A program made the position numbers and the translations under genes. A model generated the notes under the pieces. That model ran no database searches and was not told where the DNA came from. It saw only the letters and a list, made by a program, of their open reading frames with translations. Shown piece by piece: positions 6,061 to 28,804 of a DNA stretch of 52,915 nt (its first letter is position 1; every line of letters begins with the position of its first letter). This stretch comes from Bacteroidales bacterium (GTDB lineage Bacteria > Bacteroidota > Bacteroidia > Bacteroidales > F082), in contig JAFXMK010000015.1 of assembly GCA_017530365.1 (NCBI GenBank), positions 1-52,915 of the forward strand, in the 5' to 3' direction.

Positions 6061-6541
6061 ATTTGCTGCACTCTATTTTGTTTACGCAATACTGAACGTG
6101 TTTTCCATCTGCTTTGACGCCTATGGTAAGTTTGGCCAAGAAGTTCAAGTATGGGACTTCTTCATTTATGAAAGAATAATAAAGTACAACCATGTTTTTG
6201 TATCCGTTTGCTTTTTGAGTATTACCTCTCGGCTTTTCATAGATAGGTCCATCCCCTGTTTTATTGGCATTAGCGATGATTGTTTCTAGGTGTTTAACTG
6301 CATACGTGGATTGCCAATTCTTTGAAGCAGCATAAATGGTTTTTTTGTCACTCTCTTTTTCAACTACAAAAACATCTACACCGAGGTAATTACAAAACAC
6401 CCTATTTTGTTTTCCTGTCTTTTGTAGCTTTTTCCAAAGAATGGAGTAGTATTTTTTGATTAATGTAACTCGTTCTTTACTTTGTTTCTTTTCTGTAGGT
6501 ATTCCATCAATTATTTTAGGTAATTCTTCAATGTTTAATTG
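6059..6541 (-). pseudogene. 5'-truncated fragment, C-terminal nuclease-like domain of a mobile-element protein
   Basis: The minus-strand frame is open from 6541 (just after a TAA) to 6059, but it has no ATG before mid-gene; the only early candidate is a GTG at 6400. The reading begins QLNIEELPKIIDGIP and continues through KKLQKTGKQNRVFCNYLGVD to IYEKPRGNTQKANGYK, VVLYYSF, LAKLTIGVK and QYCVNKIECSK. The last third resembles BECR/RelE-like nuclease domains found at the ends of large phage and conjugative-element proteins (tentative, from memory of the family pattern). The missing start and decayed surroundings suggest a broken-off C-terminus, not a working gene. It may still be translated from the GTG. 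Confidence 0.5.
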
Positions 6542-6642
6542 TTATTATAAATAATCTGCAAAAATAAAACTAAATTAATTAAATCAAAAGAAATAATTTA
6601 ATTATACCGTTACCTCATCTTAAAGTTTGTTTCAGAAATCAG

Positions 6643-6673
6643 TTGAAAATATGGGTTGTGTTTTGTATTTTTG
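6643..6673 (+). promoter_or_regulatory. Promoter of the BREX leader
   Basis: TTG (6643-6645), 20-bp spacer, TATTTTTG (6666-6673). It is the only good plus-strand promoter between the decayed genes and brxP, about 320 bp before the brxP ATG, so the operon has a long leader. Confidence 0.55.
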
Positions 6674-6685
6674 CCCACTGCTTTG

Positions 6686-6706
6686 AACCACCTTTGGTGG
6701 TTTTTT
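6686..6706 (+). terminator. Intrinsic terminator directly behind the BREX promoter
   Basis: A perfect 7-bp stem AACCACC/GGTGGTT with a TTT loop, then further T, starting about 13 nt after the -7 box. Unless read through, transcripts would stop after about 25 nt. Confidence 0.7.
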
Positions 6707-6738
6707 GACAAAGGCGTTTTCTGGACGCTTTGGTTTTG

Positions 6739-6894
6739 ACTCGTTGGAACTTCGCAAAATCAAACGGTCAGTCAAAGACAGAGCAGCGGGAACGCCCCAT
6801 GTAATGATTATACGTGTCTGTATATATTATTTGGCGTGGGGTTTTCAGCGTTGCTCGTTTCGACTGACCGGGCAAGGCGAAGGCCTCAACGAGT
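6739..6894 (+). ncRNA. 156-nt imperfect long hairpin in the BREX leader (candidate structured RNA or palindromic element)
   Basis: Nested complementary arms: ACTCGTTG 6739-6746 with CAACGAGT 6887-6894; CTTCGC 6750-6755 with GCGAAG 6877-6882; CGGTCAGTC 6765-6773 with GACTGACCG 6862-6870; GAGCAGCG 6781-6788 with CGTTGCTC 6849-6856 (one G-U pair); AACGCCCCATG at 6791-6801 with CGTGGGGTTTT at 6835-6845; and ATAC/GTAT near the loop (6810-6823). The arms are collinear, so the whole stretch folds as one long interrupted helix. No convincing reading frame crosses it. A member of a 6S-like or other structured RNA family, or a MITE-like palindrome, are the main alternatives. Confidence 0.5.
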
Positions 6895-6928
6895 GGAACG
6901 GGCATCAGAACTGGCTCCACGTCTTTTT
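6893..6928 (+). terminator. Hairpin with T-run between the long hairpin and brxP
   Basis: GTGGA (6893-6897) pairs with TCCAC (6916-6920), with CAG/CTG inside, followed by seven T at 6922-6928. The stem is weaker than that at 6686. If used, it would separate a ~250-nt leader RNA from brxP. Confidence 0.4.
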
Positions 6929-6991
6929 TTCTGATTTTTATGGTTAGGGAGCCAAACCTTATTGGTTGGGATACAAACACAGACAACAGAC

Positions 6992-9550
6992 ATGTTCAAA
7001 ATAGTCTGGGATAAGCCACATAACGGGGTGACACTCACGATGTCATCTGCTGGAGAAGCCCTCGCCATTGCGCCGAGGCCAGTTTTTTATGAAGAATTGG
7101 ATCTTTTGGGATTGAATCACATGGGGTGGGTTTATCCTCATTCCGATGCTCCACTTCTTTGGGCTTGTGACCGCCGTTATTTCTATTGCGGTGTACTTGT
7201 GATGGAAGTCAAAGGAGGCAATCTTTTCGACGACCCAGAAATTATCCTGACTCCTGAAGGAAAGAACATCGTCCTTACCCCTATAGATATTGAAGCCTTA
7301 CGCGAAGTCAATGCCGATACAATGTTTCTCATTGAACATGAAGCGATGGAGTTCATCAATAGTGTTTATCGTCGTTATAAAGGTATAACAAAAGCTTCAG
7401 AGACAAATCCTGACATTGACTTCCAGGCTCTGGCCGCGCGGATTGAAAAGAAGACAGGAGAAAAGCAAGTAGTCATAAAAGAGTCTTGCGACAGTTTCGA
7501 CATCATGTCTGAAAGTGAAGCAAACGCTCAAGGCAAGGGGGCTGTGTTGACGAGCAAAATTGATATGTTCATTGCTTCATTCTCAGGAGGTAAAGATTCT
7601 CTAGTGTTATTAGACCTTGTTACAAGAGTAATACCAAGCACTGAATTCTCCGTCATCTATTCTAATACTGGATATGAGCTGCCAACCTCACTAGAATTAT
7701 ACAAGAAAACCGAAGAGTTCTATAAAAAAGCATACCCGGAACTTACATTCCTGATGTCTGAAAACCATCAACCAGTAATGTATTATTGGGACAAAATGGG
7801 TTCTCCAAGTCGAATGCATCGTTGGTGTTGTGCTGTTATGAAAACAGCCCCTCTGTATCGTTTACTAAAAGAGGAAGCTCGTTTAGGGAAGCAACCTTCA
7901 GTTCTTGTTTTTGAAGGTGTCCGGTCAGAAGAAAGTGAGCGTCGCTCTCAATATAATAGAACAGGCAAAGGAGTAAAGCATAACAATGTGATCAATGCTA
8001 GACCTATATTTGAGTGGAATGCAACCGAGATTTACTTATATATCCTCCTTCACAATCTTCCGTATAATAATGCATATAGAAAAGGACTTGCTCGTGTCGG
8101 TTGTTCTATCTGTCCTTTCTCTTCGGAGTGGTCTGAATATGTAGTTATGAAACAATATCCCGACTGCATAAAAGGGTTTGTGGACGAGTTATTTGAAAAG
8201 ACATCTGAGATAGGCATTTCAAACGATGTCACAAAGCGACAATACATAAAAGATGGAAAATGGAAGTTACGTGCGGGTGGTAAGACCTCAAATACAGAAG
8301 GATCTTCGGTACAATTCATAACAACTATTCCAGATTTTTATGCTATTGTCAAGCATCCAAAAGAGGACATCCTAAAGTGGCTCATCCCTGTTGGGGCAAT
8401 CTCTATCATTGGTCGAGATGAGTCAGAAATTGTTGGTAACCTCAAGTATGAAAAAGACACGTTCCAATTCGTCATCAAGTATGACAAAGACAATTTCACC
8501 ATCACATTTAATAATGTCCCCAACGACCCTATTTTTCATAGTTTGTTAAAGAGAGCCATTTACAAAGCTACATACTGCGTCCATTGTGAAGTTTGCGAAG
8601 TTGAATGCCCTACCGGTGCGCTATCAGTCGTTCCAATAGTCACAATAAACAAAGAGAAGTGTGTCCATTGTCATAAATGCCTTACATTCAAAGACAGAGG
8701 ATGTGTGATGGCTAGCTCAATTAATATATCAGAATCAACGAATAAAAATAATCCAAGAATGGCAACATCTGGTATAGATAGATATTCAACCTTTGGTTTA
8801 AGAGAGAAATGGATTAATGAATTCTTCTTAGACTATGACAATTTCTTCCAAGGAGGAAATCAATTGGGTACAAAAATGGTTCCTGCTTGCATAAACTGGT
8901 TTAGAGAAAGTGAAATCCTTGATCAAAAAGACAAAGTCATTACACCATTCGGTTTGGCATGTGCTCCTGTTTATCCTGATAATCAACCTTTGATATGGGA
9001 GTTTCTTTGGGTTAATCTTTCATATAATTCTCAGATTATTAATTTCTACACTTCGAAAATCCCATTCAATAGAGCTTTTTCAAAACCTGAGCTTCTTGCC
9101 ATGTTGAAGGAAACTTATCCAGATATTGCCGAAGCGACGCTTGGAAATCCGCTTGGTGCTCTATGCAATATGTTTGGGATTGGAGAAGATACGATTATTG
9201 GTGATACCTTACGACAAGGTGTTATAAAAGCAAAAGGTCGCTCAGTTGAAACAGTGATGAGAATGCCTCATAATGAGGTTTCGTATAAAACCGTCGCTTA
9301 TTCTTTGTTCAGATATGCAGAATCCAATAATAGACGATCGCTTACTATATCTGAGTTCTATGCGGAAGGTCAAGAAGAAGGTGTCTACCGTCAATTCGGT
9401 GTAGATCGCCCAGTTCTTGAGCGCATTCTTCGCACCCTTCAGGAAGAGCGTAACCACATTCTTAATGTCCAACTCAACCTGGGTCTAGACAATATCAATT
9501 TACGCGAGGATATTTCCTCTACTGACATTATCAAAATGATGCTTAATTGA
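6992..9550 (+). CDS. brxP: BrxP: PAPS-reductase-family protein of type 4 BREX
   Basis: The defining gene of type 4 BREX. ATG 6992 (852 residues) is chosen over the TTG at 6962. Residues ~1-190 are an unassigned N-terminal region. The adenylating PAPS-reductase/DndC-like domain follows, with SFSGGKDS at about 196-203, HRWCCAVMK near 277, FEGVRSEESERRS near 307 and the Cys pair in VGCSICPF near 370. Two 4Fe-4S clusters follow: CVHCEVCEVECP at ~529 and CVHCHKC at ~557. From ~590 to the end lies a DUF4007-like domain (STFGLREKW, LGTKMVPACINWF, TPFG). The chemistry of this family is sulfur transfer, so DNA sulfur modification like Dnd/Ssp phosphorothioation is a reasonable inference; no DNA methylase is encoded nearby. 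It is the first gene of the operon, and brxC starts about 20 bp after its stop. Confidence 0.88.
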   Translation: MFKIVWDKPHNGVTLTMSSAGEALAIAPRPVFYEELDLLGLNHMGWVYPHSDAPLLWACDRRYFYCGVLVMEVKGGNLFDDPEIILTPEGKNIVLTPIDIEALREVNADTMFLIEHEAMEFINSVYRRYKGITKASETNPDIDFQALAARIEKKTGEKQVVIKESCDSFDIMSESEANAQGKGAVLTSKIDMFIASFSGGKDSLVLLDLVTRVIPSTEFSVIYSNTGYELPTSLELYKKTEEFYKKAYPELTFLMSENHQPVMYYWDKMGSPSRMHRWCCAVMKTAPLYRLLKEEARLGKQPSVLVFEGVRSEESERRSQYNRTGKGVKHNNVINARPIFEWNATEIYLYILLHNLPYNNAYRKGLARVGCSICPFSSEWSEYVVMKQYPDCIKGFVDELFEKTSEIGISNDVTKRQYIKDGKWKLRAGGKTSNTEGSSVQFITTIPDFYAIVKHPKEDILKWLIPVGAISIIGRDESEIVGNLKYEKDTFQFVIKYDKDNFTITFNNVPNDPIFHSLLKRAIYKATYCVHCEVCEVECPTGALSVVPIVTINKEKCVHCHKCLTFKDRGCVMASSINISESTNKNNPRMATSGIDRYSTFGLREKWINEFFLDYDNFFQGGNQLGTKMVPACINWFRESEILDQKDKVITPFGLACAPVYPDNQPLIWEFLWVNLSYNSQIINFYTSKIPFNRAFSKPELLAMLKETYPDIAEATLGNPLGALCNMFGIGEDTIIGDTLRQGVIKAKGRSVETVMRMPHNEVSYKTVAYSLFRYAESNNRRSLTISEFYAEGQEEGVYRQFGVDRPVLERILRTLQEERNHILNVQLNLGLDNINLREDISSTDIIKMMLN

Positions 9551-9570
9551 ACCCCTTCAAACGCGATATC

Positions 9571-12500
9571 ATGGCACGTTATTCCGATTACATCCAAATG
9601 CAAAACTATCTGCCAGTGTACGACATCACGGCAGAATCTAGCAATCGTCTTTGGGCTTCTTTTATCCCTACGAACCAGTTCTGCGATTTGCTGCAACAAA
9701 CGATGACCGCTGTGTCTTCGTCCGAAAAATCCAAACGCAAGAGCATTTGGGTACAAGGCACATTTGGAACGGGCAAATCTCACGCCAGCTCCGTTGTCCG
9801 ACACCTCCTTTGCGATAAATACGAGGATGTCAGTTTTTATTTTAACAAAATAGAAGACATCAGCCTTCGCAATCAGGTGGATAATTTCCGCAAAAATAAG
9901 CGCCTCTTCTCTGTAGTCATCAAAGGAGTTGAAGGTGCTTATGACCTGCCTCGCTTTGCCCTTTCCTTGCAACGTGAGGTTAAAGATGCCCTTAACGCTG
10001 CTGGCCACACCAAAATAGTAGTCAAATCAGATTTTGAGAGTGCTGTCCAATATGTTGAGCAACACATGCAATACACTCAGGATGCCATTGATAAACACGA
10101 CGACCTCAAAGACATCGCCCCTACTCCAGAGGATGTTATCACTCTTCTTAGGACAAACAACATTCAAGCCTATTTAGAATTGGAAGAAGCTCTTTATGAG
10201 ACTGTTGGAGTAACCTTAACCTCTAAAAATGTCAGCGAATGGCTTGCCGAGGTAGAACGCGCCATCGAGTCTGAAGGAATTGCTGATGGCTTAGTTATCT
10301 TTTGGGATGAGTTCACCTCCATTATGGAAGCCATCGGTAGTGACCGCATCAACGTCCTACAGAATATCGCAGAGAAGTCTCAAAGCTGCAATCTCTTTCT
10401 GTTCTTGATTTCTCACCGCGTAGAAGATCAGGTAGCTTCAGGCGGTAAACGCGATGATGTAAAAACGATGAATGATCGCTTCTACACCATCCGTTACATG
10501 ATGGATGAAGTGTCTACTTACAAGGTAATGCGTCATACTTTCGACGTGAAAAACGATGAAGGTTACGATATTCTTAAATATAACCGCACTGTCAAACTCA
10601 ATGAACTTATTGACTACCTCTGCGAAGGAGGTGTTGAGGATGAGCGCAAAAGCATCCTCGAACTCTTCCCTATGCACCCTTATAGTGCTTTCTTATGCTC
10701 CAAACTTTCAGACTATGTAGGTTCCGCCAACCGTTCAGTCGTTAACTTTATGAACGATGACAAAAAGGGCTTTCGTAAGTTCATTGCAGATGAATCTGTT
10801 TTTGATTTGAGGGGGTTGCTAACGGCAGAATGGCTTTGGGACTTTTTCTATGATAGCTTTGCGGCAAATCCTCTCTGTGGAGCCTTTACTTCCAATTTCC
10901 AAAACCATATTTACAAAGTACAAAAAGAAGGAGGCGATGATTATGTTCGTGTTTATAAAGGCATACTCCTACTCAATACGCTATCTACACAATTTGCCAC
11001 CAAGAGTCCTGAAATCATAGCCAGAATCTCGCCTAATGAAAAGAGCATCCGTGGCCTCTTTGCCGATGATCGTCTGGAGCCCAAGATGGACGACATCCTG
11101 CGCTTCCTTGACACCAATCAGATAATTGCCCGTGATGTGTTTGGTGAGTTCAAGATCTCCGTCAGTTCGCTCAATCCGGTCGAGATTGCCAACGAAAAAG
11201 AGAAAGTAAAAGCGCAATTTAAGTCTGCAATTGATTTTCTGTCCTTCAATCTTGCCGCCAAGACGAACCTTACCAAACTCTTTAATGTTGGTGACTACCT
11301 CATCCGTAAATGCGACCCTCAGGTTTTCTCTTGCTCGGATGCTGAATCCTTAATTCGCGCAAAGCTGGGTAAATACACCTCAGAAAAGCCCAACACATTG
11401 CATGTGGTAATTTATTTGTCAATAACCGAAGATGAACGCCGAGCAGCCGAAAACCGAGTGAAGGATTTCTCCATAGAATACCCAAATTCTATTCATATTA
11501 TTCCAGATGAGTTCTTCACAGAGGAGGCTCGCTCAAAGTTTATTGACTTCATTGCCAATCATAATGTTGCAAAAAGCCATTATCAAGAGTCTATCGAAAA
11601 GGAAAGTGAACAAGCGGCAAAGATGCTTGTGACCAAATGGAGCAATCGTCTTGTAAATGGATCGTTCACCTTGTATTTCAACGGCGAGCAGACCCGTGAA
11701 GGAATAATAGCCAACATCTATATGCTTATCAATAAAAAATATAGCTGTAGAGTGTTTAGTAAAGGTTTGGAATCTGTTAAGGCATACAGAGCAGGTGTTA
11801 AAGACGTTAAAGACACTTTCTTTGCTAACAAGAATTTCCCCGCACTTGTACTGCAAATGCTTCAGTCGCCTAACCGTGACAGGCTAACCAAATTCTCAGG
11901 CTCAGATATTCCGGCAAAATATGTTTTTGAAGAGAACGACAACCATTTGGTTGATGAAGATTGCAAACTAACCTCAGCAGCAATTTCTGGTAACTGCTGG
12001 ATTGCGCAAGTTTGCGAAGAGGTTGACAAATGCATCGAAAAGGCCAAGAAAAAGTATGTCGACAAATTCTCTCTTTCCGAGGTTTTTGCTCCATTAATGA
12101 GACCACCTTATGGCTTCTTCTCTTCACGCGCCAACTGGGTAGCTTTTTCCTATGCACTTCGCAAGCATAAAGCCGATTTGTTTGTTACATCTATTTCCCA
12201 ACCTATCTCTGATGAGAAACTCACTGAAATGATTGTGGAATTGTTCAAGATGTGGAACGATGGCCACTCCGAGGCCAACAACAAGCTTTTGCTCCGCTTT
12301 GGTTCTAAGGAAGAGAGCGAGCTCACCCAATTGCTTTACGAAGTTTTCCAACTACAGTTTATCAAGGACATTCCCGAAGTTAAGAGCCTCAGCAATGTTC
12401 GTTGGGGAATCAACGAGTTTTGTAAACAGAAATCCAAATATCCACTTTGGGTACTCACTTACTGCGATAATGTTAACGAGAAATTGGCTACTATAATCAA

Positions 12501-13053
12501 GCAGCTTATAGAAGTACTCGAAGCCGACCAGAATCCTGATATTGCCAAAATCAAAAATTTATATCATCAAGTCAGTGGCGAAAGAGTGGATATTGCTCAG
12601 TTGGTTTCTAACCCCAATAATTATGAAAACGGCTTTTATAACTTCATCAATTCGATGAAGACGGTTAAGATACAGAAAGAATGGTGGGACGAACTTATTG
12701 AGGAAATCTCTCACCTACAATCCGAGGTTGCTTTCCGCAAGGAGTCAGATGTTCGTGAATGCGTTTATACTTTCTACAACACAAAACGAGACGAGCAGAA
12801 TCCAACTCCGACTCCAAAGCCGAACACCCCCACCTCATCAAGTACTACACCAACACAAGTTACAGCCACGCCTTCGACCATCCCCACAACCTTTAATCCT
12901 GTCAAAAAAACCGTTGACCCTGAGTCAGTCAAGAAAGCGAAAAATCTAGTCAAAGAAGCCAATATGCCAGGAGTGCTTTGGCAGAAAGTTGTTTTGGACA
13001 TCATTGACAACAACCCGGAAGTAGCCGAGTTCATTTCCAAATACCTATCGTAA
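9571..13053 (+). CDS. brxC: BrxC/PglY-type ATPase of BREX
   Basis: Large BREX P-loop ATPase of 1160 residues from ATG 9571 (a TTG at 9547 inside the brxP stop is the alternative). The Walker A motif is in WVQGTFGTGKSHASS at about residues 60-74 and Walker B in LVIFWDEFTS near 240. The long remainder is the family's helical body. Residues ~1075-1110 are a Pro/Thr-rich linker (TPTPKPNTPTSSSTTPT), after which a short folded tail runs to the end. BrxC proteins are DNA-associated ATPases required for BREX defence and modification in the systems studied. The gene ends 3 bp before pglZ. Confidence 0.88.
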   Translation: MARYSDYIQMQNYLPVYDITAESSNRLWASFIPTNQFCDLLQQTMTAVSSSEKSKRKSIWVQGTFGTGKSHASSVVRHLLCDKYEDVSFYFNKIEDISLRNQVDNFRKNKRLFSVVIKGVEGAYDLPRFALSLQREVKDALNAAGHTKIVVKSDFESAVQYVEQHMQYTQDAIDKHDDLKDIAPTPEDVITLLRTNNIQAYLELEEALYETVGVTLTSKNVSEWLAEVERAIESEGIADGLVIFWDEFTSIMEAIGSDRINVLQNIAEKSQSCNLFLFLISHRVEDQVASGGKRDDVKTMNDRFYTIRYMMDEVSTYKVMRHTFDVKNDEGYDILKYNRTVKLNELIDYLCEGGVEDERKSILELFPMHPYSAFLCSKLSDYVGSANRSVVNFMNDDKKGFRKFIADESVFDLRGLLTAEWLWDFFYDSFAANPLCGAFTSNFQNHIYKVQKEGGDDYVRVYKGILLLNTLSTQFATKSPEIIARISPNEKSIRGLFADDRLEPKMDDILRFLDTNQIIARDVFGEFKISVSSLNPVEIANEKEKVKAQFKSAIDFLSFNLAAKTNLTKLFNVGDYLIRKCDPQVFSCSDAESLIRAKLGKYTSEKPNTLHVVIYLSITEDERRAAENRVKDFSIEYPNSIHIIPDEFFTEEARSKFIDFIANHNVAKSHYQESIEKESEQAAKMLVTKWSNRLVNGSFTLYFNGEQTREGIIANIYMLINKKYSCRVFSKGLESVKAYRAGVKDVKDTFFANKNFPALVLQMLQSPNRDRLTKFSGSDIPAKYVFEENDNHLVDEDCKLTSAAISGNCWIAQVCEEVDKCIEKAKKKYVDKFSLSEVFAPLMRPPYGFFSSRANWVAFSYALRKHKADLFVTSISQPISDEKLTEMIVELFKMWNDGHSEANNKLLLRFGSKEESELTQLLYEVFQLQFIKDIPEVKSLSNVRWGINEFCKQKSKYPLWVLTYCDNVNEKLATIIKQLIEVLEADQNPDIAKIKNLYHQVSGERVDIAQLVSNPNNYENGFYNFINSMKTVKIQKEWWDELIEEISHLQSEVAFRKESDVRECVYTFYNTKRDEQNPTPTPKPNTPTSSSTTPTQVTATPSTIPTTFNPVKKTVDPESVKKAKNLVKEANMPGVLWQKVVLDIIDNNPEVAEFISKYLS

Positions 13054-13056
13054 ACT

Positions 13057-15489
13057 ATGGACGCATCAGATAAAATTATTCGTTTCGACTCCTACGAAGC
13101 CTTGCTCGATGAAATCAAGCGCGATATGACCGACGGCGACCCGCTACGCTGTCGATACCCCGTCCGCTTCATCCTGCTAAACAATTTCGATGTCTTCACA
13201 AAGTTTGCACAGGACTTGGCTCATCATGGCGTTTCGCCCTTAAATCTTGAAGAACTTATAGAAAACACCCCCGATCGTTGGATAACTACAGATGAACTTT
13301 GTCAAGCCATAAAAGACCGTAAGGTAAGAACCTTGGTCACGCCTTTTTCAGAATTGGTTCGTTTCTATTCAGAAAACGACTTTCGCGGCTTCTTCAATGA
13401 GATAATGATTAACACAGAGGATGTTGACCGCCCTGAAAAGCGCATCTATATTCCATTGATTGGCCTCCAGAATCGATTTAGCAATTTCCTCAACAGCTTT
13501 GCTCGCATTGAGGAAAGCGCACCCGTTTGGGCTTATCTCTCGGAGGAACAGAAGACCAAGGTGTTTCTTACAACTATCAAGAATGAAGCCAACTCTAATC
13601 TCAAAAAAGGTAGTATAGTAGTCCTCAACACATTGTACGATTGGCTCCGTTTCTGGAAAAACCAAGCTCCGCAGACTCAAATTGTCTGCTCTTCAGGTCC
13701 AATAAACCGTAGAGAAAAAAACTCTGATCCAGACAACATCTTTACTTTTGAACATATCCAAAACTCTCACCAGTACATTGAATCATTCCTGGGCATCAAT
13801 GTCCCGTTTGCATACAAAGAATCTGAGGAAGACTATTGGGCTATGTTGCTTGCTGACATACTCAAGAGTAACCCAGCGTCTTTTAGTTTTTCCTCCTATG
13901 TCTCAGCCCTTTTCGGTTTTGCTAAAGTCGCGCCGCGAGATTTGTTCTACCGCTGGGTGCTAACAGACACCATTCCATACCACCGTTGGTTACTGAAGAA
14001 TTACTTCCTTTCTTCTTCCGTTGCTGACAAATACCCCTACTTAAAGATATGTTTAGAGGAGTTGACGGAATACGAGACATACAGCGAACTTTCATCAAAG
14101 GTCGCTGAGCGCATTTTCTATTTCAGCCAGCCTCATGCTCAGATGCAATTTGCCTCAGAACGTGAGTTCTTGATGAAACGCTCATCCACTATCTTCATCG
14201 AGTTTACGGATAAAGCCACTGAGAGTTATATCAAAACCTGCATTTCTGAAATTAGCCAAAATAACATACAACTTGCAATCGCACTCACGACAGGTGTGTT
14301 TGATTTTGAAAAAGTTATGCTCACAGCCTGGTATGCCGACCGTGACCATACTGGCCTTTCCCTTGAAAAAGCAGCTGAAAAATACCCCGATTTGAGGATG
14401 TATCTATCCGACCTCAAACCTTCCGAGAAAAAACAAGATAACTGGTACTTGTACTACTTTGATGCTTACCGCGAAGCCAAGCTCTCCGATGAAATCACTG
14501 AAAAAATCCATTCTTACATCACGGAGAAAAACCATGATGAGAACTCCTTCTATGGTTGGTATCATTCGTTCAACGAAACACATGACCTTCTTAACAAACA
14601 CATTTCCTCTAACGACCTGCAACCCGATAAGGTGTATTGGATTGATGCTTTAGGTGCCGAGTTTCTTCCTTTCCTTCTTTCGGTATTTGAGGAAGAAAGT
14701 AACGGTTACCGTGTGATTCACTCCGAGGTTACGCGCTGCACCATTCCTTCTGCAACATCACAAAATCGTTTTGATAATGTGGTGAAATTTGGAGAACTTG
14801 ATGAAATAGCTCACGATAGTACTGGCTACCAGAAAAATTCCACCTTGGTCAAGGAATTGACGATTCTTGCAAAAAAGATGTGGGAGATAATGATCAGCAA
14901 TTCACATGGCGAACATACTATTGCCATCGTTTCTGACCACGGTCTAAGCTGTCTCTCTCGTAAAGCAGAGTCGAAAAAATATGATGCCAAAGTTGAGCAT
15001 GATGGCCGTTACATAAAAGTTCCCGCAGATGGAAAGTTATATCATGACTCCGACTATGTAGTTCACATCAATGAAAACGACGGAGAGCGATATAAAATAG
15101 CCCTTACACACTCGTCGCTGGGTCGTAAACCCGTCCATGAAGTTCACGGTGGCTGCACTCCTGAAGAAGTGCTAGTTCCATATCTCATCATTACAAACAA
15201 GAAACAGAATCTGACTCGTTTTAAATATGAGTTGGTTTCCAAAGAATTAGAAGTTTCCGAGCCAGTCGTTTCTGTTGTCATTATGCCTCAGCCTTCTAAG
15301 GTCAAGCTTACTATTGACAATCAAGAATACAACATGACACGGAGCGCTGGCAAATGGTCTGTCCGTGTTGAAGGATTGGAGGAAGGCGAATACAAGGTGG
15401 ATATATCCATTCCTGGCGGAACATCCCATAGTGAAACAATCAAAGTTATTGGCACCGGTTTCGGTGGAAATGACTTCCTAAAGTTTTAA
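13057..15489 (+). CDS. pglZ: PglZ, alkaline-phosphatase-fold protein of BREX
   Basis: The gene shared by all BREX types; the protein has 810 residues. The PglZ domain lies in the second half: metal-binding IDALGAEFLPF at about residue 528, RCTIPSATSQNR near 565, IVSDHGLS near 627, and EVHGGCTPEEVLVPYLI near 695. These are the expected metal-site and core motifs of the alkaline phosphatase superfamily. The N-terminal half (1-480) is helical and family-specific, and the last ~100 residues look like a small beta domain (KVKLTIDNQEYNM, GGTSHSETIKV). It sits 3 bp after brxC and 3 bp before brxL. Confidence 0.92.
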   Translation: MDASDKIIRFDSYEALLDEIKRDMTDGDPLRCRYPVRFILLNNFDVFTKFAQDLAHHGVSPLNLEELIENTPDRWITTDELCQAIKDRKVRTLVTPFSELVRFYSENDFRGFFNEIMINTEDVDRPEKRIYIPLIGLQNRFSNFLNSFARIEESAPVWAYLSEEQKTKVFLTTIKNEANSNLKKGSIVVLNTLYDWLRFWKNQAPQTQIVCSSGPINRREKNSDPDNIFTFEHIQNSHQYIESFLGINVPFAYKESEEDYWAMLLADILKSNPASFSFSSYVSALFGFAKVAPRDLFYRWVLTDTIPYHRWLLKNYFLSSSVADKYPYLKICLEELTEYETYSELSSKVAERIFYFSQPHAQMQFASEREFLMKRSSTIFIEFTDKATESYIKTCISEISQNNIQLAIALTTGVFDFEKVMLTAWYADRDHTGLSLEKAAEKYPDLRMYLSDLKPSEKKQDNWYLYYFDAYREAKLSDEITEKIHSYITEKNHDENSFYGWYHSFNETHDLLNKHISSNDLQPDKVYWIDALGAEFLPFLLSVFEEESNGYRVIHSEVTRCTIPSATSQNRFDNVVKFGELDEIAHDSTGYQKNSTLVKELTILAKKMWEIMISNSHGEHTIAIVSDHGLSCLSRKAESKKYDAKVEHDGRYIKVPADGKLYHDSDYVVHINENDGERYKIALTHSSLGRKPVHEVHGGCTPEEVLVPYLIITNKKQNLTRFKYELVSKELEVSEPVVSVVIMPQPSKVKLTIDNQEYNMTRSAGKWSVRVEGLEEGEYKVDISIPGGTSHSETIKVIGTGFGGNDFLKF

Positions 15490-15492
15490 AAA

Positions 15493-16926
15493 ATGAGCGA
15501 ATTAGGTAATAAAATAAGAACAGTTTTCGGCTCTGCTGCCATTTTGAAAAACCCTCAAAACTACGATGTTTTCTTGGGAAGAAATCTCCCTTCATTTGTG
15601 AAGGACTTCTTGATTTCTCAATATGCTTTGCCTGACGGAACACTCCGCAAGCAAGAGCTTGCTCGTTTTCTTGATGAGCATATTCCCAGTAATAATAATG
15701 CTGTGAAGGCTCGTTTGCGTAATGGCGAGACTTTAACATTGCTTACCCGTTTCATCGTTACCACCAACCTCCTTGCTAACAAGGTTCAGTTTCAAATTCC
15801 AGATATGGGAATCAAGCCAAACGAGACCCTTATTCCTCCATATCTTGTTGAAAAATACCCCTCCGACTTGATTGATGGAGAAAAGTGGGGCCTCCTGAAA
15901 ATAGTCTATATTCCACCCGATGAAATGGGCCCTGGGCATGTAGAAATGGTTGATTTCAGACCCTTTAAGCCTTTGGAAAAATTGGATCTGAACTTGTATC
16001 GTAATTTCAGGTCGGCGTTTACCACAGAAGAATGGATTGATGTCATCATCTCAGCGATGGAGTACAATCCTGCTTCATTCAAAAACCAAACTCAAAAACT
16101 TGAATTTATCACCCGACTCTTGCCTTTCATTGAGCCACGCCTCAATATGGTGGAACTTGCCCCAAAAGGCACAGGTAAGTCTTATGTTTTCGGCAACCTT
16201 AGTAAATATTCATGGTTGGTAAGTGGCGGAGCCGTATCGCGAGCCAAGCTGTTCTTCGACAAGTCTCGAAGAACACCTGGCATCATGCACGACCATGATT
16301 TGGTTTCTTTCGATGAAATCCAAAGTATAACCTTCACTGACCCGTTGGAAATGAGAGCTATCTTAAAGGGTTACCTGGAATACGGCAAGGCAACGGTAGA
16401 CAACTATGAGTTCATGTCCGAATGTGGTCTTATGCTGCTCGGCAACATCGAACTTACGTCCGAAGGTTTCCCTCGCAGCGATCGTTACTTTGACGAGCTT
16501 CCTGGTGTCTTTCACGAATCCGCTCTTCTTGACCGTTTTCATGGATTTATCGAAGGTTGGCTGCTCCCGCGTATGAATAATGACATGATTCTTCGTGATT
16601 GGACAATCAATGTCGAGTTTTTCTCTGAAGTGATGCACAAACTTCGTGTTGCTCCTGAATACGCAGAGTTGGTCAACAATGCAATCGAGATACCTCCTAA
16701 AGCCGACACGCGTCATCTTAATGCTGTTAAGCGTATCGCTACAGCTTACTGTAAGCTTCTATTCCCGAATATCACAAACGTCGAAGATCTCGACAAATAT
16801 GAATTTGACCGCTATTGTCTCCAGCCTGCCATTCATCGTCGTGACCAAGTTCGCCGCCAATGCGCCAACATCGACAATGAAAGCTCTTTCTCCAAGCCTA
16901 TGCCTGACATTCGTGTAAAAGACTGA
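15493..16926 (+). CDS. brxL: BrxL, AAA+ ATPase of BREX (short form)
   Basis: AAA+ ATPase of 477 residues. Walker A is ELAPKGTGKSYVFGNLS at about residues 219-235 and Walker B VSFDEIQS near 271; LMLLGNIE near 315 fits sensor 1, followed by the ALLDRFHGFIEGW segment typical of the family. Members from type 1 systems are about 680 residues with a C-terminal Lon-like domain. This one ends soon after the ATPase core, like the short branch of the family, so no protease active site is present. Characterised BrxL proteins form MCM-like rings on DNA and are needed for phage restriction. It follows pglZ by 3 bp; the next gene starts 7 bp after its stop. Confidence 0.88.
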   Translation: MSELGNKIRTVFGSAAILKNPQNYDVFLGRNLPSFVKDFLISQYALPDGTLRKQELARFLDEHIPSNNNAVKARLRNGETLTLLTRFIVTTNLLANKVQFQIPDMGIKPNETLIPPYLVEKYPSDLIDGEKWGLLKIVYIPPDEMGPGHVEMVDFRPFKPLEKLDLNLYRNFRSAFTTEEWIDVIISAMEYNPASFKNQTQKLEFITRLLPFIEPRLNMVELAPKGTGKSYVFGNLSKYSWLVSGGAVSRAKLFFDKSRRTPGIMHDHDLVSFDEIQSITFTDPLEMRAILKGYLEYGKATVDNYEFMSECGLMLLGNIELTSEGFPRSDRYFDELPGVFHESALLDRFHGFIEGWLLPRMNNDMILRDWTINVEFFSEVMHKLRVAPEYAELVNNAIEIPPKADTRHLNAVKRIATAYCKLLFPNITNVEDLDKYEFDRYCLQPAIHRRDQVRRQCANIDNESSFSKPMPDIRVKD

Positions 16927-16933
16927 CGCGATT

Positions 16934-19183
16934 ATGTTTTCAGAAGAAGCAAAATATGGTAATAGCGATCAATCGCACAAATCTATCGCTATTAGTGAAG
17001 ATAGTGAAAGGTTGTTTAAGCTCCTATTTGATGATTTGTCTGTGAGAGCTCAAAATATACTTAGATATAATAATTTAAACAGTTTAGAAGATCTCACTCC
17101 TTGGATTGAGGGTGCATGTAATGATTTTCTCAAATTAAGAAATTGCGGAAAACAAACTTCTATAGAACTCATGGTTATGATTCGAGAGCTAAGAGAGTCT
17201 ATAGAAATAATACATCAAACCACCGATGAAAGGGATTGTAGGACAATTGTAACAACGTCTTCATCAAGCTCAGAACCGAGTAATACTATCTCATTGAGTG
17301 AAGAACGAAAAAGGAGATTCATGTTCCTTTTTGACAATTTGTCTATTAGGGCCCAGCATATACTAAAAGACAATCATATTGACAGCATTGAGGGTCTATC
17401 GCCATGGATAAAAGGAGAGACCGATAGTTTTCTTTGGTTTAAGAACTGCGGCAAACGCACTTCTTTAGAACTGATGGAAATGGTTTTCGAGTTGAGAGAT
17501 TTTATTGACTTTTACCAATCCGGAAAAGAAGACGGCATGGAAGGTCAAGAAAAGGATGGCAAACAACTCGTTGAAAACCTAATGGCTATTAATAAATCGC
17601 TCCCCCCTCTTCCCGTATATTATCGCGTGGCTCTTAAGTACACGCAATTGGGCTACTTCCCGTTTTTTTTAGCACTGTATTTATGTTTATTATTAGACGA
17701 CAACAAAGATTTTAACATGATGATACAGTGTTCAAATATTTATGCCAACGAAAGCACGAAAACCTTATCTGAAATTAGCTTGAAAAATAAAATAACTCGA
17801 GAACGTGTGCGTCAAATTCGCCTTAAACAGTTCCGCAAATTTCATGATAGGGTTGTAAAAATATCAAAAGCAGAAGCCTTTGAAGCTTCCAAATACAATG
17901 CCTCTAGTGAATATGAACTTAGAAATATTGCTTCTCGTGAAGAAGTCCCATTTAACAGTAATTTTATTGTATGGGTCATTTGCCTAATAGATAATCATTA
18001 CAAGTTAATTGGAGAGCCCAGCAAAGCTTTTTTCAGCTCTTCATATTCGGCTGAAACATTGTATGCTGTGCCTAAAGTGTTAAGTGATTTTTTTGATTTC
18101 AAGGAGTTTATTGAGTCAGTTAAAACACAGATTAACGAAAAGCGCTTTTACGAAGAAAGAGTGGAACTTGAGCAGTACGTGGGGCATCTATGCAAAGAGA
18201 ATTGCGATGCAATCACTTTTTTTGAGATAGTTAAAGAGTGCCGAAATATCATGGAAAGAGGTTATCCGGAATTGATATCAAACAGCCAGATTATCTTTCC
18301 GGCAAATTCTAGAAAAGCAATTCCCTATTTGGTTGAAGACCTCCTTCGTGAATTCGATCGACCAATGAATGTTGATGAAATCCTCGAACAACTTAGCAAC
18401 CGTTTTCCAAACCTTAAGCCAACTGCATCACAAATAAGAGGTGCCATTCGAAATAAAAGTATTGTAGCCATCAATAGAACCAGATCTTATGCTCTTTCCG
18501 AATGGAATCAAAGCAATATGCGTAGCAGAACCATACGAGATTTAGCTGCCGAATACCTTAACAGCCTCACGCCACCTGTTGCAACACTGTCTGAAATATG
18601 TGCTTATATAGCAAAGTTCCGTGATGCCGTAAAAAAAAATAGTGTCAAGGCTAATTTATTAGCAGAAGCCAACAACCTTTTCTGTCTTTACTATAAAGAC
18701 GACAAACAATTCATTGGCCTAACCGATGGGCATATTGATGATAAATATATTAAACAGGACAAACTGCAAGAAAGACGTGCCTTTTTCGATAGTATTGAGC
18801 GATTGGAAAGTTTTATTAAGAAAAATGATCGTTTTCCTTATTCTTCCAGTGTGGACGAAGAAGAATCCCGTTTATTCCGTTTTTATAATAATTCTTTGGG
18901 CTATTTAAGAAAGGATGTTTTATCTGTTGAAGAAGCAGCTGAAATCGAAAGAATTGCCTCTACTTACGGTCATCTTATGATCAAAAAAGAGCGTGTTTCA
19001 TGGGACGAATGGCTTGAACGCTTTGTGAAACATATTACGGAAAACAATTCTTTACCCCATCGAAGCTCTCCCGAGTATGCATGGTACGATGAAAACAAGG
19101 ATTTGTTTGAGGCAGGTCTATTGACTCCAGAACAAACAAGCTCTTTTGCTTTTCTTAAAAAGATAGTAGCAAGAATATCTTAA
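16934..19183 (+). CDS. BREX-linked protein with two alpha-CTD-like domains and a sigma-4-like HTH
   Basis: A 749-residue protein, fifth gene of the operon, 7 bp behind brxL. Two homologous segments (about 26-92 and 126-192) resemble the RNA polymerase alpha C-terminal domain: LSVRAQNIL...LRNCGKQTSIEL and LSIRAQHIL...FKNCGKRTSLEL, the helix-hairpin-helix pattern that in RpoA contacts DNA. Residues ~277-303 (TLSEISLKNKITRERVRQIR) match the sigma-70 region 4.2 helix-turn-helix. Residues ~461-525 (LVEDLLREFDRPMNVDEILE, then AINRTRSYALSEW) look like a HARE-HTH/RpoE-delta winged helix, and 530-600 may be a second one. The tail 600-749 is helical and unassigned. No nuclease or ATPase motif is seen. 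It is probably a DNA-binding regulator or adaptor that imitates promoter-recognition modules. The gene is visibly AT-richer than brxC-pglZ, suggesting separate recruitment. Domain calls are by eye. Confidence 0.72.
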   Translation: MFSEEAKYGNSDQSHKSIAISEDSERLFKLLFDDLSVRAQNILRYNNLNSLEDLTPWIEGACNDFLKLRNCGKQTSIELMVMIRELRESIEIIHQTTDERDCRTIVTTSSSSSEPSNTISLSEERKRRFMFLFDNLSIRAQHILKDNHIDSIEGLSPWIKGETDSFLWFKNCGKRTSLELMEMVFELRDFIDFYQSGKEDGMEGQEKDGKQLVENLMAINKSLPPLPVYYRVALKYTQLGYFPFFLALYLCLLLDDNKDFNMMIQCSNIYANESTKTLSEISLKNKITRERVRQIRLKQFRKFHDRVVKISKAEAFEASKYNASSEYELRNIASREEVPFNSNFIVWVICLIDNHYKLIGEPSKAFFSSSYSAETLYAVPKVLSDFFDFKEFIESVKTQINEKRFYEERVELEQYVGHLCKENCDAITFFEIVKECRNIMERGYPELISNSQIIFPANSRKAIPYLVEDLLREFDRPMNVDEILEQLSNRFPNLKPTASQIRGAIRNKSIVAINRTRSYALSEWNQSNMRSRTIRDLAAEYLNSLTPPVATLSEICAYIAKFRDAVKKNSVKANLLAEANNLFCLYYKDDKQFIGLTDGHIDDKYIKQDKLQERRAFFDSIERLESFIKKNDRFPYSSSVDEEESRLFRFYNNSLGYLRKDVLSVEEAAEIERIASTYGHLMIKKERVSWDEWLERFVKHITENNSLPHRSSPEYAWYDENKDLFEAGLLTPEQTSSFAFLKKIVARIS

Positions 19184-19360
19184 CTAGCCTCTCCTAAAAT
19201 ACCCGTCAAAGAGTTTACTTGCCCCATGCCTTTCAAAGAGTTCAGCACCCCGCTAAAGCCTTTGTCTTGTGCCTGGCAGTGCTACATCTGTAATCGAAAT
19301 TTTTGCTTTGTCAAATTTTGGCAAAGTATAATCGCACGGAAAAGATAAGTTAGTCATACA

Positions 19361-19368
19361 TATCTTTG
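19361..19368 (+). promoter_or_regulatory. -7 promoter box before the transposase relic
   Basis: TATCTTTG, 25 bp before the ATG of the degenerate transposase reading. I see no intact gene between the BREX operon stop and here (19,184-19,360). Confidence 0.4.
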
Positions 19369-19889: not shown

Positions 19890-20105
19890 ATGGCGTTCGC
19901 TGCAGCGGTGTTGCCATGTACTAAGTCGCACGGACTTCTTCACCTCAAAACAGAGGTTGGAAGAGGGGAGACCCCTTCAAAAGCCTGGCTTAAGAATACT
20001 GTTGTGGGTGCTCGTCTCGACGATGACTTGTGGTTGCTGCTCCAAAGCCCAGAATGGCGTAATCGTTTGAGGGACTTCATCTTGAGCCATAAGTTTCAGA
20101 GGTAA
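19890..20105 (+). pseudogene. Unrecognised fragment, 71 codons
   Basis: An open frame with no promoter or ribosome-binding site in front. It ends in GARLDDDLWLLLQSPEWRNR and LRDFILSHKFQR, which reads like a true protein C-terminus, possibly of an HNH-type endonuclease (weak impression). It lies between a dead transposase and a repeated promoter, so I treat it as a gene remnant. No function can be given. Confidence 0.3.
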
Positions 20106-24473: not shown

Positions 24474-27400
24474 TTAATAAGTAAACGTCCTGTCGCCAGT
24501 CGCATTAGACTTGTAGATGTAACCTTTGCCAGGTTCAAGGGTCCGCAATTCACCTCTCCATGACGAGTTTCTATAGATGACGCTGTTCTCAGAGGACTTG
24601 ACAATGTCTCCCTCAACAGGTTGGAGCCCCGAGAAAGCCTCTTCTACGGACATGCTCTCACCGCGAAGATATCCTATCCAGTTGATATTATGGTGAATGG
24701 TGATTTCATGCTCAGTAGGGTTGACCGGCACACCCGTCAACGTGAATTCACAGCTGTTGCTAACATTGATGATTAACATCTGACGGATGTCGAACTCAAT
24801 GCTCGTAGGTCTCCATGCCCCATCGTAGTAAACCATAGAGCCACTATGAGCCTTGATTATGGCAGTACCCGTGCTTCCAACCGCTGTTGCAATGGCGTCC
24901 TTCAACTGATCTAGGGTGATGTCAAGGTTGGTTGACCACCAGTTATATCCAGCAGACAATGAAACGGTTTGCTGCACCTGGGCCTCGTTTGCCTCAATGC
25001 CAAGGATGAGATGGTTCTTTACCGACAATACATTGCTGTTGTATTCTGAAGTGGTTGGCGGCGCTAACGGATTGTAGTTCGTTGCTGCGGAATAGGCATA
25101 CAAGGCTTGATTCTCCTCAGTACTGTAAACCGAACAGGACATGTAGGGTGAATGATCGTATCCATTGGTGTTGTCGTCAACTACCAGGACAAGATTGGAG
25201 GTGCCGTCATATTCGAACGGAGTGTCGAGCTCAAAGGTGGTCCAAGCTACTGCGCCCATCGTCACCGTGCCGCTGTACACCTTGTCGGAGGCCTCCATGG
25301 CAATCCAATCGGTTTTACTGCTGAAAGAGGATTTGTCCGTGTGTTTCAGATAGATGTCGTAGGTGCGGACTCGATCGGTATTCGCTTTATTAAAGAAGGA
25401 GATACTTGTGATGGTGCAGGCCGATCCGATCTCTTCGGCAGTATAGATCTGTTGCGACAGCGCATATTCGTAGAAACTGTAGCTGGGGAGATAGTCGTGG
25501 TTGCTTTCATCTTGTCCCAAAGCCACTCCTTGCCCAAAACTGGCAACAAACTGATGGTTGCCATCAACCGGGAAGGTGAAAGGATTGGCGGTTGACACCA
25601 CCACACCGTTTTCGCTCCACCCCGTGAAGAAATAGCCGTTGGCTGGGGTGGCAGTCAGAGTGCAATAATCGCCAAAACCAAACTCGCCTCCGCCACTGAC
25701 GGTGCCTTGAGCAGTATTACTAGATGTGGCAGTGACGTCGAATATGGCAGTGGCAGCACCACAGTTACAATCGAACTCGAAGAGCACGCCGGAAGCAGGA
25801 CTTGCCCCTTGTTGGAAAATGATGACATCGCCTTCGTAGCTTACCACGAAAGAACACTCTGTGTCGTAGCTGCCTTTGGTCCAGGTCAGGGTTACGTGGG
25901 TGCCATTGTGGATTTCCAAAGGATAGGTGGCAGCATTGTTGCCCGAAGCGATGGTAAGGTCTTGCGAGGCAGTTCCATCATCGAAACTAACAGTAAGCTT
26001 GGCACCGTTCCAACCATCTCCATAGCTGTCCCTAAGGCTGAAGATGACGCTACAGGTGTTCTTCAGTGTCTCGGTGCCCTGTGCACTGAGGCCTCCATCA
26101 GCGGCCATCGTGAAGGTGACGGGGATTTCCGCGTCTTCAGGGCAATTGGCCGCAATGGTAATGGTAAAAGCACAGGAGACTTCTCCTTCGGCGGCGATAT
26201 CACCGACCGTGACCGTTGGGTTGGAGATTGTCACGTAATTGCTGGTAGTGCTCATCGTGGCAACGGCATTGGTGACTTCGTAGTGTCCGGTGTTCAAGAA
26301 TCTGGCAGTCAGCGTCAAGGTCTCACCAGGGACAAAACCTCCGTTCCATGACATGTTTTTGTATTCTAACGAGGCTTCACCTGCGATGATCACAAAATCG
26401 CCCACCCAGGTATTGTCGCCATTGTTGGCAGTGTAATGGAAGGTGACACGTGTGCCTTCTGCCATGCTGGAGTTAAAATTGAAAAGGAATCCGCTCACCG
26501 TGGTGGTGGCACCGGCGGACAAGGCGCTGAAGGTCTTGGTAGGAGTGGTGATGTTGGCATCCTCGGAAGTCAAGGTGACAGTGGTGGTGCCAGTGCATTG
26601 GCTGTTGCCCACGTTCTTGAAGGTGAGGTCCAATGAGGTGTTGTCGCCGATATGGGCTGTCATGGGCGTATAGCTGTCGAGGCAGATGTAGGGTTCTTCG
26701 ATCACAACAGCCGGGATGGTCTGGATATAGGGTTGACGTTGGGTGCGGGTGACCACGATCATCACGTCGCCAGCACTAGTGATAGGCGTGATCGGCACGT
26801 TGACGGTACCTGTTGAACCGACTTGCGCCACACCGAGGATCTCATTGTCGCGGGTGATGGATACATACGAGCCAGCATCAGCATTAACGGTAAAGGTGTT
26901 TACACCGATACCGATGGTGGAGGCGTGGCTCACCTGGTTTACGGAAGGCTGTGTCATGTAAGGCATCACAGATCCGTCACCCAAACACTGGTAGGCCCTC
27001 CAATAGTATTCATCATCGACGCTGTATTCATAACCGGCAGCATGGGCGTACGTCACGGCAGCGTTACCGATGTAGATGATCGAGCTGATGCTGTTGAACT
27101 CCGTCTCGTCGAACAAGGCGTCGTACATGCCTGTCATGGTGGACTCGACGGTTTGTACGGTGGCAGGTTCCGGGTCGTGGGCTCCCACACCGAAGTAGTA
27201 GTCTTCAAACCAATAGGTTTCAACGACTGAGCCGATGTAGCCGAAGGCACCCTTGTTGGCAGCGCGAATCAAAGTCTCACCCAAGCAAGGGGTATAGGTG
27301 CTGTTGCCCCAGTTAGCCGCCAAGCAGCAGTTACCCACTGCCAAGAAATACTTGTCGTTATTGGTCAATGCGTTGGCGTTGGCGTTAGTAAAGCTAGGAC

Positions 27401-28766: not shown

Positions 28767-28796
28767 AAGTGGGTTTTTAATATTTGTAAAAGGCTG

Positions 28797-28804
28797 CAAA
28801 GATA
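28797..28804 (-). promoter_or_regulatory. -7 promoter box of the C25 protease gene
   Basis: Minus strand TATCTTTG, 30 bp before the chosen ATG at 28,766. It confirms that the upstream in-frame ATG (28,799) cannot be used, since it lies inside the box. Confidence 0.6.

Follow-up and report, generated by a model that had tools for sequence, protein, structure and literature searches.

What does a fifth gene do when it follows, within a few base pairs, the four genes of a type 4 BREX (bacteriophage exclusion) operon? The question is raised by a 52,915-nucleotide stretch of DNA (hereafter the window), which is contig 6 (JAFXMK010000015.1) of a 2.67-Mb draft genome, 88% complete, of a Bacteroidales bacterium (GCA_017530365.1). 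A complete type 4 BREX operon (6992-16926) is followed here by orf5, a gene of 749 codons that ends at 19183. A first-pass annotation had described the five genes as a defense unit that would be new. We tentatively read the product of orf5 as a transcription factor that binds promoters and is dedicated to this operon, a reading that is drawn from sequence. The five genes are:

6992..9550, + strand: brxP, PAPS-reductase/ferredoxin-like/DUF4007 protein (PADLOC BrxP, Pfam)
9571..13053, + strand: brxC, ATPase (PADLOC BrxC-PglY, E 7.5e-138)
13057..15489, + strand: pglZ of type 4 (NCBIfam BREX_PglZ_4, 609.8 bits, cut-off 140)
15493..16926, + strand: brxL (Pfam BrxL_ATPase 373 bits, BrxL_N 83 bits; TIGR02688 439.8 bits)
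16934..19183, + strand: orf5, 749-aa protein, a fusion of RNA-polymerase-like modules

The identity of the four core BREX proteins is secure as judged from profile matches. Between them, PADLOC, NCBIfam and Pfam models match all four, in the order brxP-brxC-pglZ-brxL that was proposed at first sight. BrxP matches the PADLOC model over its full length (892 bits), as well as Pfam PAPS_reduct (115 bits) and DUF4007 (26.2 bits, just below the cut-off of 27), and the NCBIfam type 4 models for PglZ and BrxL both score above their own cut-offs. Counted from ATG starts, the gaps are 20, 3, 3 and 7 bp as reported, with orf5 beginning 7 bp downstream of brxL; alternative starts are offered by in-frame TTG codons upstream of the ATG of brxP (at 6962) and, for brxC, at 9547.

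Every module recognized in orf5 is of a DNA-binding or RNA polymerase (RNAP)-associated type; the searches revealed no catalytic domain in it:

17018..17182, + strand: first RNAP alpha-subunit C-terminal domain (alpha-CTD 1), residues 29-83 (Pfam RNA_pol_A_CTD 26.1 bits; RpoA-CTD profile; hhalign 95.3%)
17336..17485, + strand: alpha-CTD 2, residues 135-184 (RpoA-CTD profile; hhalign 69.5%)
17699..17854, + strand: sigma region 4 (sigma-4)-like helix-turn-helix (HTH) with recognition helix TRERVRQI (profile matches, motif pattern)
18314..18748, + strand: two winged-helix (HARE/delta-like) domains, residues 461-605 (delta-subunit matches of relatives map here)
18749..19180, + strand: helicase-associated-like helical region, residues 606-749 (Pfam HA in relatives; PDB 2kta)

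The alpha-CTD and sigma-4 similarities claimed for the fifth protein were thus borne out by Pfam RNA_pol_A_CTD (26.1 against a cut-off of 23.8 bits, in one stretch only), by the RpoA-CTD profile, and by a match of the orf5 family profile to sigma-4 structures in the PDB (E 8e-7). Pfam Sigma70_r4 (cut-off 24.1) gives 13.9 bits in the window protein and 16.6 to 22.8, all below the cut-off, in four of its siblings, by which we mean the five relatives found directly behind brxL in other type 4 loci (see below). Two other relatives exceed the cut-off (25.1 and 33.5), and the relative at locus L100 has no match to this model. A pattern search found a TRERVRQ-type recognition motif in 29 of 32 family members, and TRERVRQI of orf5 is identical to the recognition helix of a sigma factor of the same genome (L137), which we take to be RpoD. 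The Pfam scan of orf5 revealed no Sigma70_r2 or WYL domain at E up to 1, and no alpha-subunit N-terminal domain (alpha-NTD).

The remaining parts of the architecture were upheld to a varying degree. For the suggested HARE-like winged helices, an AlphaFold2 (AF2) model with VIA gives a winged-helix fold at residues 529-605, and in relatives the RNAP delta (HARE-like) model matches at positions corresponding to both winged helices (E 0.008, 8e-4 and 2e-6, all under the cut-off), but the window protein itself has no match to the profile of the HARE-HTH/RNAP delta N-terminal domain. Pfam HA (cut-off 28.4) scores 15.0 to 27.0 bits in four siblings, the best values among relatives being 25.7 and 27.0; it has no match in the window protein, and the family profile matches PDB 2kta (E 0.003). 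Two alpha-CTDs were proposed and are present in the window copy, but in the five siblings they are undetectable by sequence (hhalign 0.4%), with no Pfam match in the four scanned. Because none is detectable there, the pair appears to be a trait of the window copy rather than of the BREX sub-family, in which sigma-4 seems general. Modeling of the whole of orf5 (7 alignment rows) gave a mean predicted local distance difference test score (pLDDT) of 61 and values under 50 at residues 1-209, so that the fold search with this model is uninformative on the alpha-CTDs. A model of residues 1-330 of the L059 sibling (5 rows; mean pLDDT 70, residues 11-180 in blocks of 79-95) yielded no alpha-CTD among the fold-search matches listed.

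Upstream of the operon lies a candidate promoter, which resembles the Bacteroidota promoter consensus:

6642..6673, + strand: Bacteroidota-type promoter-like site (GTTG ... TATTTTTG), found by pattern search (1 mismatch), ~320 bp upstream of the ATG of brxP

The window holds 19 such matches, against 5.8 expected by chance. Since this site precedes brxP and no exact TAnnTTTG occurs on the + strand from 13750 to 19361, the brx genes and orf5 are likely, on sequence grounds, to form one transcript. The ~320-nt leader before brxP (6674-6990) includes one terminator-like hairpin (6711-6731), where 0.6 would be expected by chance in 6400-7100, and attenuation is possible. Rfam has no match in the window at gathering scores, and the only two matches before brxP are at chance level.

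To place orf5 among type 4 loci, we scanned 84,980 species genomes with a BrxP alignment. Of the 88 stretches confirmed in this way we retained the best 80, which correspond to 77 loci; viral contigs added 3, giving 80 type 4 loci besides the window. brxL is present in 62 of them and is followed by at least 350 nt in 59. A relative of orf5 lies directly behind brxL in five of these 59 loci (L059, L060, L072, L081 and L122; gaps of 2 to 5 bp), extending past the end of the fetched stretch in L081, L060 and L072. In one further locus, L100, it lies directly before brxP, 19 bp away. The idea that the fifth gene is typical of type 4 BREX can hardly be kept in the face of these counts. BrxL is 91-93% identical to that of the window in exactly the five loci with a downstream relative, and at most 69% identical elsewhere (best 45 matches listed). 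Because all five loci with BrxL at least 90% identical carry orf5, and none of the other 54 with sequence behind brxL has a relative there, orf5 is, as far as these alignments reach, a marker of one type 4 BREX sub-clade. The proposed five-gene unit stands insofar as the coupled position recurs throughout this sub-clade, but it is also one case of a variable slot that is filled in 30 of the 59 loci. In a tree of 32 family members, the six brxL-downstream proteins form one clade (100/99), and the L100 protein groups with a non-BREX protein (L042).

A sample of 295 genomes of the order has BrxP in 5 and, with a limit of E 1e-3, orf5 relatives in 38; by our count 19 of these, among them the genome of the window, reach 1e-10 or better. 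Several matches of lower score fall in frames about as long as rpoA (331-341 codons). The two genes stand side by side in the window only. One genome (G098) has them on separate contigs, with no BREX gene seen beside the relative.

orf5 is also the most divergent gene of the operon, chiefly in its N-terminal half. Identities between siblings and window are 91-93% for BrxL, 81-84% for BrxC, 67-72% for PglZ, 59-86% for BrxP and 36-40% for orf5. By region, orf5 identity is 13-19% over the N-terminal 215 residues, 19-24% in the sigma-4 region, 36-43% after it, and 47-61% in the winged-helix and C-terminal regions. A BrxP tree (77 rows) placed the orf5 loci in three spots; we rejected the three separate acquisitions of orf5 that it would imply, because brxP recombines and because BrxL and BrxC identities unite all loci with downstream orf5. 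Between L060 and L072, for example, segments of 92.3% and 95.8% match flank a ~1.2-kb non-aligning stretch inside brxP, which looks like an exchanged specificity part of BrxP. A PglZ identity of 25-26% for L072 was discarded as an artefact of reading through a frameshift, the true value being 67% to the window over 744 residues.

The family is not bound to BREX. Searches with the BREX-linked alignment (E up to 1e-10) detected members in 4 genomes out of 395 for the phylum and in 13 out of 173 for the family, each count including the genome of the window. We retrieved 33 loci that carry a member outside BREX, and in 8 of these its neighbors are Dnd-type or HerA/HSP90-like genes. The wider family thus lies mostly elsewhere than in BREX loci, an outcome that the first-pass annotation had set as counting against its reading. 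In five (L043, L046, L159, L160 and L162), the relative lies directly before DndD and a DndE/DndH-like ATPase gene on the same strand; DndD matched PADLOC models in the two loci scanned (E 1e-92 and 2e-91) and TIGR03185 above the cut-off in L159. The DndC model has no match in any of the five genomes concerned, one of which is 79% complete, and therefore no known route to phosphorothioate is seen there; a family-wide link to phosphorothioation, prompted by the DndD neighbors, was dropped on this ground. In three loci (L163, L164 and L166, the first two nearly identical), the relative is the last gene of a five-gene operon with a HerA-like protein (PADLOC mads_8 E 7e-7, HerA E 1e-4), an HSP90-like protein (NCBIfam HtpG E 7e-9) and two genes that appear, by eye only, radical-SAM-like and NurA-like. 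Ten of the 33 loci encode a shorter protein of 488-521 aa, next to which genes for ribosomal proteins S6, S18 or L9 were read by eye in at least seven cases. Nine members are paralogues in the genus of the window, several near mobile-element-like genes; the remaining loci have no telling neighbor. Plasmids and phages gave no orf5 match (tblastn, E 1e-3), and viral contigs contain at least one distant relative.

The slot behind brxL was counted as filled when a codirectional open reading frame (ORF), 100 aa or longer, had its start between -20 and +35 bp relative to the brxL end. Its 30 occupants belong to many families: besides the five orf5 relatives there are two unnamed families (L063-like and L082-like), Schlafen-type proteins (L115 by Pfam, L109 and L128 from the similarity at their starts), along with further proteins. 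The two unnamed families (L063, L070, L071, L074, L078, L082, L112 and L123) apparently have a common C-terminal domain, as seen by eye, and some of their proteins carry a sulfur-binding domain. Overall, five of the 30 slot proteins contain a domain resembling that of a stand-alone gene of ~145 aa, which lies between brxP and brxC in 20 of the 80 loci (e.g. L129:12508-12942). A profile built from 17 of these 20 (L101 has a 99-codon ORF only) matches the solved phosphorothioate-binding domain SBDHga1 (8h0l) at E 3.6e-23; this similarity suggests that the ~145-aa protein is a reader dedicated to the mark that the operon itself puts on DNA. The window retains merely a remnant of such a gene:

19926..20090, + strand: sulfur-binding-domain gene remnant, profile positions 85-141 of 147 (profile match), ~0.7 kb behind orf5

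Farther downstream, 24474-28799 on the - strand encodes a peptidase of family C25 (1441 aa; Pfam E 1e-49).

As a transcription factor, orf5 would use its sigma-4 HTH, together with the two alpha-CTDs in the window copy, to bind the -33 and upstream DNA used by the host holoenzyme, and its winged helices and C-terminal domains would supply extra contacts to DNA or a partner. It would sit on host-type promoters, foremost the one before brxP, and would set the output of the costly BREX machinery; holoenzyme formation is not expected, since no sigma-2 is recognized. The sequence shows the domain content, the coupling to brxL, the constancy in the sub-clade and the shared recognition helix; the DNA target, the sign of regulation and the operon's own promoter as the main target are what we infer. 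We lean toward this reading because the modules are of DNA-binding and RNAP types and the recognition helix is that of a host sigma factor, because a promoter-like site precedes brxP and one transcript is likely, and because the wider family lies mostly outside defense operons, in part beside ribosomal-protein genes, which fits an ancestry among transcription factors. The L100 relative, moreover, stands immediately before brxP, where regulators often lie: 17 of the 80 loci (16 if only the 75 that have over 300 nt in this region are counted) carry a small HTH gene within 1.2 kb before brxP, but the window, the five siblings and L100 do not. Several observations weigh on the other side. In six cases orf5 is the last gene of the operon. 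The regions before brxP share little except a promoter-like TATTTG motif, with no common operator. That loci with orf5 lack the small HTH gene is not significant (~1.3 expected in 6). An N-terminal half at 13-19% identity next to BrxL at 91-93% is beyond expectation for a simple regulator, and elsewhere the slot holds sulfur-binding, Schlafen-type or unknown genes that resemble accessory readers or effectors.

These last points bring up the possibility, which we regard as real but somewhat doubtful, that orf5 is a targeting or sensing subunit: by imitating promoter-bound RNAP it would find active or vacant promoters, for example those on phage DNA during takeover, and bring the BREX core to them or release it there; DNA or a phage factor would be met by the variable N-terminal half, and the core by the conserved C-terminal half. 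Its coupling to brxL in translation, kept in the window and five other loci, would suit such a role, as would its place as the fastest-diverging gene, the sulfur-binding-domain proteins in the slot at five loci, and the relatives before DndD-DndE/H pairs and at the end of HerA/HSP90-like operons. The slot protein of Bacteroides heparinolyticus (L086:12303-13769, 488 aa), otherwise unrelated to orf5, likewise combines an alpha-CTD (39.3 bits) with a weak match to sigma-4 (17.8 bits, under the cut-off). This role is weakened by the lack of direct evidence for contact with BREX proteins or phage factors, by the 25 of 33 fetched relatives that are not beside Dnd- or HerA/HSP90-type genes, by the undetectable alpha-CTDs of the siblings and by the lack of a DndC-model match in the Dnd-linked genomes. 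In a broader form, which we consider rather unlikely, a Bacteroidota family of RNAP mimics that unite alpha-CTD, sigma-4 and delta-like modules in a single protein would be a promoter-recognition module shared by unrelated defense operons (type 4 BREX, DndD-DndE/H and HerA/HSP90-like), directing or triggering them at promoters of invading DNA or at host promoters emptied by phage takeover. That orf5 is simply a passenger, one of the unrelated genes gathered behind brxL, accords with the many families seen in the 30 filled slots; it is quite unlikely given that the frame stays open in all five sub-clade members (in the portions covered) despite wide divergence, and given the separate case upstream of brxP. 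We think it about as unlikely that orf5 acts as an anti- or co-sigma modulator of host or phage polymerase through sigma-4 (beta-flap) contacts, although the first nine Foldseek matches of the sibling N-terminal model are sigma chains (E 0.17 to 0.71).

orf5 offers a concrete handle on two unsettled matters, the means by which BREX recognizes and attacks phage DNA and the control of type 4: the gene is always present in one sub-clade, diverges quickly and encodes the same DNA-recognition helix as a host sigma factor. The occurrence of its family beside several kinds of defense genes points to a promoter-binding component of bacterial immunity that is not yet described. If orf5 does aim or trigger defense at promoters, an unusual principle would be common to unrelated operons. 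The presumed novelty of the five-gene unit held up in the full-text literature searched, where no description of an orf5-type fifth gene was found; earlier mention of the architecture in the HARE-HTH literature is possible.

Compared with known systems, the window shares with type 4 BREX (brxPCZL) all four core proteins in canonical order in one operon, and differs in that its sub-clade has a constant fifth gene. The passages of PMC12839542 on type 4 BREX describe it in 457 taxa, with a cysteine desulfurase, a small zinc-finger/HTH protein and nuclease effectors as extra genes; for this type they name neither a protein with alpha-CTD and sigma-4 nor a sulfur-binding protein that stands alone. 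According to a passage in PMC11931770, which cites Yuan et al. 2024, brxPCZL makes phosphorothioate, and brxPCZL is also mentioned in PMC12707154. Like the BrxR regulators of other BREX types, orf5 has a proposed role in regulating its operon, but it shows no match to their WYL domain. The DndD-DndE/DndH operons likewise have an orf5-family protein in front of a DNA-linked, defense-type gene pair, but without a DndC match in their genomes. MzaA of the MZA anti-phage system, called a sigma factor in a passage of PMC9523054, is similarly a sigma-like protein encoded with a defense system, whereas orf5 matches its model (NF041931) in the sigma-4 stretch only (13.6 bits, E 0.021, profile 675-703 of 726; cut-off 800 bits). 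As the match is confined to this stretch, MzaA was rejected as the parent family of orf5; over positions 474-716 the same profile also finds two host sigma-like genes, with scores below its cut-off. Finally, orf5 and its relatives combine modules resembling the RpoA C-terminal domain, sigma-70 region 4 and the N-terminal domain of RNAP delta; orf5 is not an RNAP subunit, and the Pfam scan shows neither alpha-NTD nor sigma-2 in it.
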